Below are positions 488 to 12,470 of a stretch of 21,570 nucleotides of DNA, in pieces. Made by a program: the position numbers and the translations under genes. Below the pieces are notes generated by a model. It was not told where the DNA came from. It was given only the letters and a program-made list of their open reading frames with translations, and ran no database searches. Location: IMG/VR virus record IMGVR_UViG_3300036832_000332, positions 1 through 21,570 of that record; one strand, 5' to 3'. Each line of letters begins with the position of its first letter. Position 1 is the first letter of the stretch. The stretch is from a virus.

Positions 488-729
488 GCGCGACGGGCTC
501 CGACCGCTTTCAGCGCCGCCGCGCGTGCCGTCGCGACCGTGCGACGGGCCGCGACCGCTTTCAACGCCGCCGCGCGAGCCGTCTCGACCGTCCACCGATG
601 CCCGCGCTCGGATCGCACCGATGCGAGGCCGCCGAGCCGCGCGAGCCGTACCCGCTCCGCTCGCGGGAGCCGCGCGAGCCGTCCAAGGATCCACACGCAA
701 CGGTGCTCGGGTTTGATGATGTTTCTCAT
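484..729 (-). CDS. Small basic alanine-rich protein with a 17-residue tandem repeat
   Basis: This 81-residue protein has no function I recognise. It is rich in Arg and Ala. Its C-terminal half consists of two copies of a 17-residue unit, TVETARAAALKAVAARR and TVATARAAALKAVGARR, which probably form two amphipathic helices. The segment LARLGGLASVRSERGH before them resembles the short Gly-Gly-containing helical repeats of small nucleic-acid-binding phage proteins, but this is only a resemblance. The ATG (727-729) overlaps the TGA of the DpdA-like gene as ATGA, and its own TGA overlaps the GTG of rusA. It therefore sits tightly inside the early operon. A DNA-binding accessory role is possible; I would not go further. 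Confidence 0.7.
   Translation of the reverse strand: MRNIIKPEHRCVWILGRLARLPRAERVRLARLGGLASVRSERGHRWTVETARAAALKAVAARRTVATARAAALKAVGARRA
491..592. repeat. 51-bp imperfect tandem duplication
   Basis: Two adjacent 51-bp units, each beginning CGACGGGC and containing CGACCGCTTTCA, differ at only a few positions. They lie in frame and create the two 17-residue units of the small basic protein encoded on the minus strand. An in-frame duplication is the simplest explanation. Confidence 0.8.
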
Positions 730-1340
730 AAATCGAATTCCGGTTGCTTATCGATCTCGCCGTGCCACGCGTCGATCATCGGGATCCGCGTGTCGGGATA
801 GCGCGAGAACCCCGAACCGTCGATAGAATCCGCGCCCGCCTTGCGCGCGAGTTCGTACCGCCGTTTGCCGTTCACGCGACCCCAATGCACCCATACGTCG
901 CGCGCTTTCGCGACTCCGCATAGATCCCGCGCCGCCGTACTCACTTTGAACGCGGTCGTCCCGCCGATGAATAAGCACCCGATTTCCGGCCACGGCACGC
1001 GGTCGGGTGTGATGCCGTCTTGCGCGACGAACGCCGCCGGAAATCCGACCCCGCGAATCACGCGCGACCAAAACGGCCACCGTGCGAGCGTCGAGGCCGC
1101 ATCACCGACGAAATCCGGCGCGGCGACGAACAAGCACCCCGGGCAGTCGGCGAACCGCTCCAACATCCGTACGAACGCGCCCTCGTCGAACCCCTTAAAC
1201 GCGCCGTTATCCATTGCCCATCGGCCGGGTTCTAATTTCAACGAGGCCGGGTTGCCCCAATGGCGCGGCTCGATGAGATCGCCGACGTTCTCGTCGCGCG
1301 GATAGCGCGTCGCGCCGGATACCAACAACAACAAACTCAT
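726..1340 (-). CDS. DpdA/TGT-like transglycosylase, possible 7-deazaguanine DNA modification
   Basis: This 204-residue protein looks like a compact member of the tRNA-guanine transglycosylase superfamily, as found in phage DpdA proteins that insert 7-deazaguanines (preQ0 and related bases) into DNA. Visible motifs are MDNGAFKGF (D44, position of the TGT D-GGF substrate-pocket motif), APDFVGD (74-80), FIGGTTAFK (124-132, like the TGT YxxGGLxxGE strand), VHWGRVN (151-157), and GADSIDGSGFSRYPD (169-183). In the last motif D174 is the likely nucleophile. It is much shorter than bacterial TGT and lacks a C-terminal zinc site, as in actinophage homologs often annotated queuine tRNA-ribosyltransferase-like. 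ATG (1338-1340) is preceded by AGAGGCG and overlaps the upstream TGA as ATGA. No preQ0 synthesis genes (folE, queD, queE, queC) are in this window. The family call is good; a DNA rather than tRNA substrate is inferred. Confidence 0.8.
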   Translation of the reverse strand: MSLLLLVSGATRYPRDENVGDLIEPRHWGNPASLKLEPGRWAMDNGAFKGFDEGAFVRMLERFADCPGCLFVAAPDFVGDAASTLARWPFWSRVIRGVGFPAAFVAQDGITPDRVPWPEIGCLFIGGTTAFKVSTAARDLCGVAKARDVWVHWGRVNGKRRYELARKAGADSIDGSGFSRYPDTRIPMIDAWHGEIDKQPEFDL

Positions 1341-7322: not shown

Positions 7323-7973
7323 TTGTCATTTACCCCACTACCCACCGACCCGGCGCGATGGCGGCTCGCGGGTGAACGCGTGATCGAGTATCGACGCGCG
7401 CACGGCGTGAAAAAAAACGGGCGCCGTCAACCCATGACGCAAGAGGTACTCGCCAAACGCGCGGGCGTCTCGCAAGGGTGCCTGCAAGCATTCGAGAACA
7501 ACACGCGCGCGACGCAATTCGAGAACGTGCAGCGCATCGCCGCCGCTGTCGAGATGACACTCGATCAACTCTTCGCGCCCGGTAATGTGGCGTTCGAGCT
7601 TGGACGCGCGCGCGCCCTCGTCGCCGATTCTTCGATCTTCGTCAGCAGTGCCGAGGCCGACGGCCCGTATAGCGTCGAGGCCAACGCCGTACGGAAACTC
7701 TTCGTCGTGGCGTTCACGCGCGAACGCCTATTCGTGTTGATGCATCTCGTTACGCACGTGAAAAACCGCACGGATCCGGCGGCGATTGCGATGGTCGAAG
7801 AACTGCAACTCGCCGGGCTCGAACCGATCCCGAACGGGCCGCCGTCGGCCCCGCCGCCCGCGCCCTCGAAAGAGGCGGCGGCCTCGGTGCACGTGATGCC
7901 GCCGAATGGGAAAGAGTCACTCTCGGTCACGTCCGCGCAGTCGTCGAGACGGCGGAAAACGGGCGGGCGGTGA
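7323..7973 (+). CDS. XRE-family helix-turn-helix repressor
   Basis: The 216-residue protein carries an XRE/Cro-CI helix-turn-helix at about 38-85: MTQEVLAKRAGVSQGCLQAF, then FENVQRIAAAVEMTLDQLF. The N-terminal 37 residues also contain a helix (WRLAGERVIEYRRAHGVKK). The middle (90-160) is helical, and the last 50 residues are a disordered Pro/Ala/Ser-rich tail. There is no visible S24 peptidase domain, so LexA/CI-style self-cleavage is unlikely and induction must work otherwise. The start is TTG 7323-7325, six bases after GAGAGGAG. It is transcribed away from the early operon across a shared operator region, the position expected for a lysogeny repressor. That role is inferred from context and fold. 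Confidence 0.85.
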   Translation: MSFTPLPTDPARWRLAGERVIEYRRAHGVKKNGRRQPMTQEVLAKRAGVSQGCLQAFENNTRATQFENVQRIAAAVEMTLDQLFAPGNVAFELGRARALVADSSIFVSSAEADGPYSVEANAVRKLFVVAFTRERLFVLMHLVTHVKNRTDPAAIAMVEELQLAGLEPIPNGPPSAPPPAPSKEAAASVHVMPPNGKESLSVTSAQSSRRRKTGGR

Positions 7974-9557: not shown

Positions 9558-10058
9558 ATGACAACGCAGTACATCGGCACCACGGAACGGGCGGCAATCA
9601 TTCGCAAGGCACTCAAGGTACAGCACGGGTGGACGTCGCGCGACGTGAGCGTGCGCGCGGATCATTTCTCGATGGGCTCGGCGATCCGCGTCCGCATCAA
9701 CAACCCCGACGTCTCGCTCGCGGCGGTCAAGGCGATTGCCGAGGATCACGAGAAAATCGACCGCGATCAGTTCGGCGAAATCCTGAACGGCGGCAACCGG
9801 TACGTGACCGTGAGCTATTCGCACGACGCCGCCGAGGCGCTCGCGGATCGGTTCATCGCACACGTAAACGTCGCCGTCGCCGCCCGCGAGGGCGCCAACG
9901 ACCGCACGTTGATTCCGATCCCCAACACGGCGTACTTGCTCGGGCTCGGTCAGAACGGGTACGGGTTCTCGCTCTGGACGAACGGCGGGCACGCGGGCGA
10001 AGTGATGGACGCACGCGGGGCGGCGCTTTACGTGGCGGTCGGCTCGCACAATCAGTAA
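9558..10058 (+). CDS. LPD29-domain protein
   Basis: The 166-residue protein begins MTTQYIGTTERAAIIRKALK and contains VSVRADHFSMGSAIRVRI, DRDQFGEILNGG and RYVTVSYS. This combination (start helix, S-V-R-x-D-H-[FY]-S-M-G-S-x-I-x-V-R strand pair, F.....D.....Y block) matches the LPD29 domain of large polyvalent proteins from phages and conjugative elements. Its function is unknown; such proteins are suspected of host take-over or mobile-element conflict. The C-terminal half (100-166) is beta-rich with GYGFSLWTNGGHAGEV. The gene stands alone between its own operator-bearing promoter and a strong terminator, so it is a single-gene unit. This layout fits a lysogeny-expressed or tightly repressed accessory gene. 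Confidence 0.75.
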   Translation: MTTQYIGTTERAAIIRKALKVQHGWTSRDVSVRADHFSMGSAIRVRINNPDVSLAAVKAIAEDHEKIDRDQFGEILNGGNRYVTVSYSHDAAEALADRFIAHVNVAVAAREGANDRTLIPIPNTAYLLGLGQNGYGFSLWTNGGHAGEVMDARGAALYVAVGSHNQ

Positions 10059-10079
10059 CGGCGGGGCGCACTCATACCG

Positions 10080-10107
10080 AGCCCGGGCAGCGTGCCCGGG
10101 CTTTTTT
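10080..10107 (+). terminator. Rho-independent terminator after the LPD29-type gene
   Basis: AGCCCGGGCA (10080-10089) and TGCCCGGGCT (10093-10102) form a 10-base stem with a GCG loop, followed by a run of T through 10107. This is a textbook intrinsic terminator. Confidence 0.93.
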
Positions 10108-10117
10108 GGTTTTTATT

Positions 10118-10125
10118 TGATATCA
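10118..10125. promoter_or_regulatory. TGATATCA operator copy before the downstream gene
   Basis: TGATATCA recurs here, 24 bases before the next start codon and just past the terminator. On the minus strand it reads AAATGATATCAAAT, like the site at 9402-9413. It probably controls the integrase-proximal gene set. Confidence 0.55.
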
Positions 10126-10148
10126 TTTCGAGCGAGGTTACATACCAA

Positions 10149-10382
10149 ATGACACGCAAACGCGGATACACCACGAAGTTTCGGCCGCACGGCGCCACGG
10201 GCAAGCGGTATCTACTCGGCAACATTCCGGCGGGGTTGTGGACGGCCGCGAACACCCGCGCGCGCCGCGAAAATCTCTCGATGCGCGCGACGATCCTCAA
10301 CCTGTTGACGTTGTACGGCGAGGGAAAAATCGACATTCCGACGACGACCGCGACGACGAGCGACGAGGCGAAAGCGTCGTAA
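10149..10382 (+). CDS. Small ribbon-helix-helix-like DNA-binding protein
   Basis: The 77-residue protein MTRKRGYTTKFRPHGATGKR onward has the strand-helix-helix pattern of Arc-like proteins: YLLGNIPAGLWTAANTRARR, then ENLSMRATILNLLTLYGEG. A Thr/Ala-rich tail follows. The start at ATG 10149 avoids the terminator and operator that a longer frame would cover. It follows directly behind the TGATATCA site and lies upstream of the integrase gene set. It could be an excisionase, a recombination directionality factor or an autoregulator; none is proven. Confidence 0.65.
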   Translation: MTRKRGYTTKFRPHGATGKRYLLGNIPAGLWTAANTRARRENLSMRATILNLLTLYGEGKIDIPTTTATTSDEAKAS

Positions 10383-10438
10383 CCCGTCCGACCACGAAAG
10401 GCACCCGGACATGAGCACATTCACAAAGGACGGTACAC

Positions 10439-10768
10439 GTGCAGAAACGAAAGCAAACCCAGGTGGTACAGGCACTCGCGCGCGTGGGCGCGCTCGCACA
10501 GGTGCGAGAGTTGCTCGGGCTATTCCCCGACTTGATCGACGAGATCAACAAGCTCGCGCCGAAACGGCGGCTCACGCCCGCGATGCGCGACGAACTCGGG
10601 GCACACGTCGAGGCGTCGACGAACGGCTCGACCCCGAAACCAAAACGGTCGAGCAAGCGAACGGGACCGAATCCGAACAAACGATGGACGGCCGCACACC
10701 GTCGCAACTTCATCGCGGCGATGAAACGCAAGGCGCGCGAGGCCAAGAGCAAGGCGGCGACGGAATGA
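10439..10768 (+). CDS. Small basic protein of unknown function
   Basis: The 109-residue protein starts with GTG (10439-10441) behind AAAGGA. Its first 50 residues are helical (VVQALARVGALAQVRELLGL, then FPDLIDEINKLAP). The rest is Lys/Arg-rich (NPNKRWTAAHRRNFIAAMKRKAREAKSKAATE), resembling AT-hook or nucleoid-type tails, so DNA binding is likely. A different frame starting at 10411 spans the same DNA but has the composition of a shadow in its first part. Its TGA overlaps the next ATG as ATGA, and the set runs straight into the integrase. Confidence 0.65.
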   Translation: MQKRKQTQVVQALARVGALAQVRELLGLFPDLIDEINKLAPKRRLTPAMRDELGAHVEASTNGSTPKPKRSSKRTGPNPNKRWTAAHRRNFIAAMKRKAREAKSKAATE

Positions 10769-10908
10769 GCGCGCGCGAGAGGCTTGCCGACGCGTTGGAA
10801 TTGCAACGCGTCGGCGACCTCGCTCTCGTCACAGACGTGTGCGCCGAGGTGCTCCGGTTGCTCGGGTGGACGTGCACGCCGCCGAGCGGCAAGGCCGGTG
10901 CGCGATGA
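10765..10908 (+). CDS. Very small protein coupled to the integrase
   Basis: This 47-residue product, MSARERLADALELQRVGDLA then LVTDVCAEVLRLLGW, is helical. It is linked by ATGA overlaps to the gene before it (10765-10768) and to the integrase after it (10905-10908). This double coupling supports it as a real gene. It is about the size of a small excisionase, but no helix-turn-helix is clear. Confidence 0.55.
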   Translation: MSARERLADALELQRVGDLALVTDVCAEVLRLLGWTCTPPSGKAGAR

Positions 10909-12101
10909 GCGTGTACAAGCGGTGCGGGTGCGACGCGTCGCCGAACTGCAAGCATCAACCGTTGTGGTTGAAAATCTGGTACGAGGGGCGCGTCGTCGCG
11001 CGCGGCCCCGTGCAGAAATTCGCGCGGCACCTCGTCGGCGAACAGAAATTGCCGACCACGGTCGGCGAGGCCAAGCTCTTAGAGGCGGCGGCGACGCTCT
11101 GGTACGCCAAGGGGTGCCCGCCGTTCGAGGTGACGCCCGAGGCGCGCGCGGTCGAGGCCGCCGCGCGGCGGTTCACGCCAACATACGCCGAGTATCGGAA
11201 ACGGCATCTCGACAAAATGGCCGAGGGCGCCTCGCGCGCGCTCGCGTTCGAGGCTCGGTGGAAATCGCGCCCGCTCGCCGTCGTCCTCGATCAACCCGAG
11301 GTCGAGGATTATTTCGACGACCGGCGCGACGTCGACGAGATCGCGGCGGGTTCGATCAACCGCGAGATCACACGCCTCGCGCATTTCATCAACTGGTGCC
11401 GGGGGCGCAAGTACCTCGCGGTCGGCGACGTCTCGCCGTTCTATCACCGCATCAACAACCCGACCGGGATCAAAAAAGAAACCGAGGGCGCGCGAAAACG
11501 GCGGCTCGCCCTCGCGGATCCGACGCGCGAGGCCGCACACGAACGGCTCGGCGAAGAGGACCGGATCATCAAGGGGATCGAGCAGCTACAGGAAACCGGC
11601 GAAGAGATGCGCGGGCGGTTCTATTGCGCCGTCGATGCCGGGTTGCGTAAGGGGGAGATGCTCGCGCTCGAACGCGCCGACGTGTTGTGGCAGCATCGCG
11701 ACGGGCTCATGCTCCGCGTGCGATGGGAAACCGCGAAAACGAAACGCGAGCGGCTCGTGCCCGTCGTCACCGAACGTCTTGAGGACTTTCTGAGGGCGCG
11801 GCGGTTCGCGCCGTTCCCGTTCGGCGACGGCGAGGGTGCACGGATCTACGCGTTTCAAACCGCATGGGACACCGTCCGCGAGCGCGCGCGGCTCGTCGAT
11901 CTTCGATGGCACGATCTCCGGCACGAGTGCGGCAGTCGATTCGCCGAGGGGTTCGGCGGTCGGCCGCCCGTGCCCGTGCGCGAATTGATGGAACTCATGG
12001 GACACACGAACCTCGCGACGACGCAACGGTACCTAAATCCGACGCTGTCCTCGCTCGCGGCGAACATGCGGCGCGCGGTCGGACGCGATCCGCTCCGCTA
12101 G
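10905..12101 (+). CDS. int: Tyrosine recombinase (phage integrase)
   Basis: The 398-residue protein is a tyrosine-type integrase. It has an N-terminal segment with CGCDASPNCKHQPLWLKIWY, a layout seen in phage integrases with a Cys-rich arm-binding start, a core-binding domain (about 92-200), and a catalytic domain. Catalytic residues are R248 (DAGLRKGEML), a strand lysine at K278 or K280 (ETAKTKRERLVPV), H336-x2-R339 (RWHDLRHECG), H367 (LMGHTNL) and Y376 (TTQRYLNP). All are present, so it should be active. ATG 10905 overlaps the upstream stop as ATGA; a longer frame to 10839 is rejected. Downstream lie arm-type repeats and a tRNA-Lys gene, the likely integration site. Confidence 0.97.
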   Translation: MSVYKRCGCDASPNCKHQPLWLKIWYEGRVVARGPVQKFARHLVGEQKLPTTVGEAKLLEAAATLWYAKGCPPFEVTPEARAVEAAARRFTPTYAEYRKRHLDKMAEGASRALAFEARWKSRPLAVVLDQPEVEDYFDDRRDVDEIAAGSINREITRLAHFINWCRGRKYLAVGDVSPFYHRINNPTGIKKETEGARKRRLALADPTREAAHERLGEEDRIIKGIEQLQETGEEMRGRFYCAVDAGLRKGEMLALERADVLWQHRDGLMLRVRWETAKTKRERLVPVVTERLEDFLRARRFAPFPFGDGEGARIYAFQTAWDTVRERARLVDLRWHDLRHECGSRFAEGFGGRPPVPVRELMELMGHTNLATTQRYLNPTLSSLAANMRRAVGRDPLR

Positions 12102-12355: not shown

Positions 12356-12428
12356 GACCGGGTAGCTCAGTTGGCAGAGCAGCGCCCTTTTAAGGCGCGG
12401 GTCGCGGGTTCGAGCCCCGCCCCGGTCA
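12356..12428 (+). tRNA. tRNA-Lys(TTT)
   Basis: The 73-base cloverleaf folds cleanly. The acceptor stem is GACCGGG/CCCGGTC, the D stem GCTC/GAGC, the anticodon stem GCGCC/GGCGC with loop CTTTTAA (anticodon TTT at 12389-12391), the variable loop GGGTC and the T stem GCGGG/CCCGC with TTCGAGC. The discriminator base is A; CCA is not encoded (ACCT follows). It is complete and should work. It stands beside the integrase arm sites, so it is either the phage copy of a tRNA integration target or a phage-borne tRNA that serves both purposes. Confidence 0.95.
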
Positions 12429-12470
12429 CCTCTCGCGGTAGACTTTCCGGGCTCGCCTGTCGATGGGAAA

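Follow-up and report, generated by a model that had tools for sequence, protein, structure and literature searches.

A compact DpdA/TGT-superfamily gene in a phage replication operon, with relatives that often adjoin a predicted queuosine-precursor transporter gene

Phage DpdA proteins, singleton DpdA genes and phage homologues of YhhQ have all been described already, and in the published survey DpdA genes without synthesis genes formed the largest group, with their role left open; uptake of an exogenous precursor was named as a possibility, and the phage YhhQ homologues were not correlated with any phage group (PMC6884629). The Vut_1/YhhQ/QPTR family consists of queuosine-precursor transporters, which serve tRNA queuosine in bacteria (PMC11130926). 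The present study analyzes a compact DpdA-like gene in a temperate-phage fragment of 21,570 bases, which is the whole virus record and is referred to here as the window. Part of the picture was already known; what may be new is the tight pairing of a transporter gene with a compact DpdA-like gene and the profile placement of PHROG 15826, the family to which the gene belongs. Patterns detected suggest that this short family is a small, overlooked branch of DNA guanine-exchange enzymes and, because many relatives directly adjoin a base-import gene, that certain phages mask their DNA with a rare base taken up from their surroundings.

The compact gene, its operon and its superfamily

The gene occupies positions 726 to 1340 on the minus strand (ATG start, 204 amino acids, PHROG 15826), an open reading frame whose coordinates in the initial annotation are borne out. 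Its start overlaps, in an ATGA, the stop of the upstream gene at 1337 to 2137 on the minus strand, which matches a replication initiation protein (PHROG 2447, E 3.6e-25), and downstream of it lies a RusA-like Holliday-junction resolvase gene at 2 to 481, also on the minus strand and cut by the window end (PHROG 140, E 8.7e-31; PF05866), in keeping with the replication operon that had been proposed. Conserved neighbours of this operon were sought in the other loci, where they were mostly absent and gave no hint of function. Elsewhere the window carries an HTH regulator (7323 to 7973, plus strand), an integrase (10839 to 12101, plus strand) and a tRNA-Lys at 12356 to 12430; the last, a tRNA-Lys(TTT) just after the integrase gene, may be an attachment site or a phage-borne tRNA. 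A search of the window for folE, queD, queE, queC, a second or full DpdA and Vut_1 found none of them, which agrees with the initial annotation as to the four preQ0 genes, and because the record is only a fragment, the phage may still carry genes that the window lacks.

This is a conserved gene under purifying selection and no chance open reading frame, because dN/dS is low, relatives at 45–75% identity exist and the aspartates of the motifs do not vary across 116 family sequences. Estimates of dN/dS against the nearest relatives were approximately 0.12–0.16 where dS was computable, dS being saturated in two comparisons, and the 45–75% identity is that of close relatives to the 204-residue protein. 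Relatives are encoded on at least 558 viral stretches and at 40 loci in bacterial genomes. All 21 members of one family alignment (A2) matched PHROG 15826, for which the listed function is unknown, and GenBank actinophage records name relatives “DpdA-like tRNA-guanine transglycosylase”. Searches of Pfam and NCBIfam with the 204-residue protein gave no match, the PF01702 model matched nothing in the window and none of 21 relatives, and a PDB sequence search with the single protein returned nothing useful. Two unusual forms of the gene were seen among the relatives. At locus L015 (approximately 10001 to 10546) a TGT-like domain with WAMDNGAF lies inside a 4,277-residue open frame that by eye also has helicase- and methylase-like stretches and resembles a polyvalent phage protein. 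The Seurat-type phages phiG7 (L023, 11881 to 12473) and SHIN8 carry the short gene as a pair of overlapping frames, with decay, sequencing error or frameshifting as candidate causes of the split.

By profile comparison, the product of 726 to 1340 is a compact protein of the TGT/DpdA superfamily, as initially annotated. A profile of 116 short-family sequences was compared by hhalign with target profiles built in the present analysis from 14 phage DpdA sequences (among them 9g, BcepGomr, Hedgerow of the Rosebush type, and Sonali gp87), 13 TGT, 14 GDPD, 12 TrpA and 12 RPE sequences. The match to phage DpdA had a probability of 95.9 and an E of 2.7e-9 over 197 columns, the match to TGT was weak (E 0.013), and the decoy TIM barrels GDPD, TrpA and RPE gave E values of 0.21–0.6 over 2–50 columns. 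An AF2 model of the 204-residue protein was a TIM barrel with a mean pLDDT of 90.5. Foldseek matched the model to TIM barrels in general, with TGT entries at a TMq of about 0.5 and other barrels as good or better, so that the fold alone does not decide identity; among named viral proteins, the best matches were mostly DpdA-type “queuine tRNA-ribosyltransferases”. A bridging protein, RHph_N3_2 gp054, matched both PHROG 887, “queuine tRNA-ribosyltransferase” (7.1e-51), and PHROG 15826 (6.7e-5).

All four motifs named in the initial annotation (DNGAF, APDFVGD, FIGGTTAFK and SIDGSGF) were found in the protein, and they were mapped to TGT residues by alignment and motif order rather than by coordinate superposition. 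Conservation was counted in 116 family sequences, or in 115 where one sequence has no residue at the site. D44 of DNGAF (residues 44–48, codons at 1197 to 1211, minus strand as for all the motifs) was present in 115/115 sequences and aligns with the TGT general-base Asp in the DSGGF motif and with DSGAF of phage DpdA. D76 of APDFVGD (residues 74–80, 1101 to 1121; 116/116) aligns with the LDVIGD motif of phage DpdA, and FIGG (residues 124–127, 960 to 971), with G127 in 116/116, corresponds to the IGG/LGG strand motif of DpdA and TGT. D174 of SIDGSGF (residues 172–178, 807 to 827; 115/115) aligns with the TGT nucleophile Asp of the DMFDC motif. Thus the general-base-type D44, the nucleophile-type D174, the pocket-type D76 and G126–G127 are conserved in 115–116 of 116 sequences. 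QDG (residues 107–109, 1014 to 1022), with Q107 in 116/116, is placed like the VQGG motif of TGT in a weak alignment with a one-column shift; the conserved His of 9g-type DpdA (His196) is missing, and the invariant Q107 stands at the corresponding place. VHWGRVN (residues 151–157, 870 to 890) falls where TGT has its LMGVG motif, with H152 and R155 present in 115/115, and these two residues together with K132 are family-specific and invariant or nearly so among the 116 sequences.

Transporter and preQ0 genes around the relatives

Six-frame searches of 124 loci found a gene of the Vut_1/YhhQ family (PF02592) in 42, of which 40 were within 300 bp of the short gene on the same strand. QueC was found in 8 of these loci, QueE in 8, QueD in 5 and FolE in 4, such that Que or FolE genes were present at 11 loci, and Vut_1 or Que genes were near 50 of 122 relatives. 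In a tree with 122 rows, 30 rows had the transporter upstream of the short gene and 10 had it downstream, with each gene order requiring at least five changes on well-supported branches, so that the pairing arose or re-formed repeatedly as opposed to being inherited once. The phage collection had the transporter in 17 of 24 records with the short gene, which are not independent in that 12 are one mycobacteriophage group, and 73–101 of its 50,697 records were transporter-positive. Examples of the pair in phages of M. smegmatis mc2 155 are Bhagsy gp54–55 and Majeke gp53–54. Several E. coli phages of the Seurat type have a Vut_1 copy that bears the annotation “preQ0 transporter”; phage copies diverge from the Pfam model (E approximately 1e-9 to 1e-12), and the transporter role is predicted from family membership. 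Neighbours of other kinds were DNA polymerase and clamp genes in phiG7 and R29Z, and C5-methylase, ParB and SSB genes near other relatives. A PAPS-reductase-like PP-loop gene, which could modify the base further, was near 15 of 124 loci, with the order Vut_1, short DpdA-like gene and PP-loop gene at L036 (8479 to 9342), L043 (8474 to 9343) and L016, ReqiPine5 (20682 to 21599).

The association was also read in reverse, from the transporter. Four phages had Vut_1 and lacked the short gene (RHph_N3_2, Pam5, phiLM21 and X2_30), and in all four a DpdA-like gene was within approximately 0.5 kb of Vut_1, belonging to PHROG 887 or 1279 or, for phiLM21, to Pfam DpdA. Scans of viral contigs gave 87 transporter loci that fell into 28 clusters at 80% identity, and in 27 of the 28 a short-family or other DpdA-like gene flanked the transporter, nearly always touching it, whereas the published survey had found no correlation; the best 80 loci from the profile scan were ranked by similarity to one query, in whose alignment 6 of 10 sequences were neighbours of the short gene, and the clusters are still interrelated. 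The exception, L242 (Arib1 type), had a truncated transporter. In Mycobacterium phage Arib1 (L226/L242) the DpdA-like gene is also missing where the relative Bhagsy has an intact pair, as if one deletion took out both functions. Another candidate exception, L225 (“Bacteriophage sp.”, human faeces), was set aside in that it looks like a bacterial contig, with ferrochelatase-, GrpE- and DnaK-like frames by eye. In most of the 28 clusters a second compact DpdA-like family (approximately 230 residues, PHROG 887) is beside Vut_1, for example at L222 (3345 to 4025), L223 (3049 to 3741) and L227 (4993 to 5682), and its genes are annotated merely as hypothetical or “transglycosylase”.

The initial annotation had proposed that the phage may have modified DNA and use host-made preQ0. 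Among 24 bacterial genomes with a relative, some of them drafts and with loci that may not all be prophages, TGT was over the cut-off in 14, QueC was strong in 11, and 9 had neither. The sole Vut_1 match in three of these nine (Nonomuraea turkmeniaca, Planomonospora and Micromonospora) was beside the short gene, which leaves the neighbouring DpdA-like protein as the one apparent user of an imported base; no TGT, QueC or Vut_1 was found in the other six genomes, which are actinobacterial. Pairs of transporter and DpdA-like gene are found in hosts without a queuosine pathway. Mycobacteriophages carry relatives too, and for Mycobacterium as a genus it is reported that the genes of TGT and the preQ0 pathway are all missing (PMC6884629). 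Because hosts without TGT and QueC and phages of Mycobacterium carry relatives, host-made preQ0 is not a general supply for the short family. Import through Vut_1, the gene for which is near about one third of relatives, would be a further route of supply, one absent from the initial annotation. The clade of the window (the window itself, L066, L001–L014 and relatives) had no QueC, no Vut_1 and no flanking Que gene, its contigs reaching 61 kb, and a hydrophobicity search near the gene found no multi-pass protein with at least four predicted segments; it is possible that the host supplies the base in this clade. The source of the base would differ between clades, being own synthesis, own importer or, for the window clade, possibly the host. 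A separate actinobacterial clade (L041, L042, L045, L051, L054, L057, L058 and relatives) had no Vut_1 or Que genes nearby, and its genomes had no Vut_1 and, where tested, no TGT or QueC.

Proposed function and alternative readings

The 204-residue protein most probably exchanges bases in the DNA of the phage, a reading that we hold to be somewhat better than even. A minimal TGT/DpdA-type barrel would attack the glycosidic bond of guanine in phage DNA via D174 and would replace this guanine with a 7-deazaguanine base while the DNA is being replicated or shortly thereafter, and the modified DNA would resist restriction. The superfamily match, the intact TGT-type residues, purifying selection, the replication operon and the linkage to Vut_1 and Que genes support this reading, and from them we infer the activity, DNA as opposed to tRNA as the substrate, 7-deazaguanine as the base and protection as the benefit. 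Counting against it are the window clade without Vut_1 or QueC, the six actinobacterial genomes without TGT, QueC or Vut_1, the unmodified DNA of phage Orion, the three phages that have a full DpdA besides the short gene, and the weak match to the TGT profile. A further step, put forward tentatively as somewhat short of an even chance, is that a YhhQ-family importer and a compact DpdA-type enzyme form a salvage module that inserts environmental 7-deazaguanine into the DNA of the phage, also where the host has neither synthesis of such a base nor a use for it, with the window gene as the enzyme half in a clade that has lost the importer or never had it. If so, whether a phage can modify its DNA, and thereby evade restriction, would hinge on the presence of the base in the environment.

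Two of the alternatives are serious. The first is action on tRNA, whereby a phage tRNA-guanine transglycosylase would, in the infected cell, supply tRNA of the host or of the phage with a queuosine precursor. Of the enzymes with this fold, the closest that are well studied do have tRNA as their substrate, bacteria rely on Vut_1 transporters for tRNA queuosine (PMC11130926), and record names say “tRNA-guanine transglycosylase”, but this is unlikely given a profile match far stronger to phage DpdA than to tRNA TGT, neighbours that are DNA-replication and DNA-methylation genes, a length of 204 residues that is far shorter than the 357-position TGT model, and some hosts without a TGT of their own. 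The second, action on DNA without 7-deazaguanine, as a glycosylase on guanine or modified guanine or as an exchanger of another base, for example undoing a host modification, would be consistent with the six host genomes and the window clade in which no supply gene was found, and K132, H152 and R155, which are invariant and specific to the family, may point to a different chemistry. Also in its favour, some phages already have a full DpdA: Sonali, Vibrio R29Z and Seuratvirus phiG7 carry full DpdA and preQ0 genes alongside the short gene, which in these phages must then do something other than duplicate full DpdA alone. Such a departure from 7-deazaguanine is nonetheless rather doubtful, since relatives are strongly linked to Vut_1 and Que genes and the catalytic-type D44 and D174 and base-pocket-type residues are retained. 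Lastly, the protein could resemble TGT and yet be some other TIM-barrel enzyme, akin to phosphodiesterases, TrpA or epimerases, as the best PDB matches by Foldseek were TrpA and RPE and the top PDB sequence matches of the A2 profile were GP-PDE domains, weak at E 0.03–0.18. A GP-PDE identity was ruled out with GDPD as an hhalign decoy, which fell within the decoy E range, and the disparity between all three decoys (0.21–0.6) and DpdA (2.7e-9), as well as the linkage to queuosine-pathway genes, makes any such barrel very improbable.

Comparison with known systems

The singleton DpdA of Orion, a mycobacteriophage of cluster B1, is likewise a DpdA-type gene without preQ0 genes (PMC6884629, PMC9584339), and no 7-deazaguanine was detectable in the virion DNA of this DpdA-only phage (PMC6884629), hence modified DNA cannot be deduced from a singleton DpdA gene. 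The tblastn matches of the 204-residue protein included no B1 phage, so that the DpdA of Orion is a different branch. The QPTR/YhhQ family (Vut_1, PF02592; phage PHROG 4899) is that of the gene adjoining many relatives, but the window gene departs from the pairing, with no Vut_1 in the window or in close relatives. Compared with tRNA-guanine transglycosylase (PF01702), the short protein shares a TIM-barrel model and an aligned general-base D, nucleophile D and GG motif, but has no PF01702 match, has a profile E of 0.013, and is much shorter. Phage DpdA (9g, CAjan and Rosebush type; PHROG 887, with PF23859 for a related branch) measures approximately 270–380 residues compared with approximately 200 in the short family and has a conserved His motif where the short family has QDG; the short family also has its own invariant K132, H152 and R155. 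DpdA2 likewise does not have the 9g-type conserved His (PMC6884629). The window gene differs further in having no Pfam match and no preQ0 genes in the window, and its activity is a prediction from sequence. By profile, though, the two are homologous over nearly the whole length, and they have the same order of motifs, D(S/N)GAF, (L/P)DVxGD, IGG and a D at the nucleophile position.
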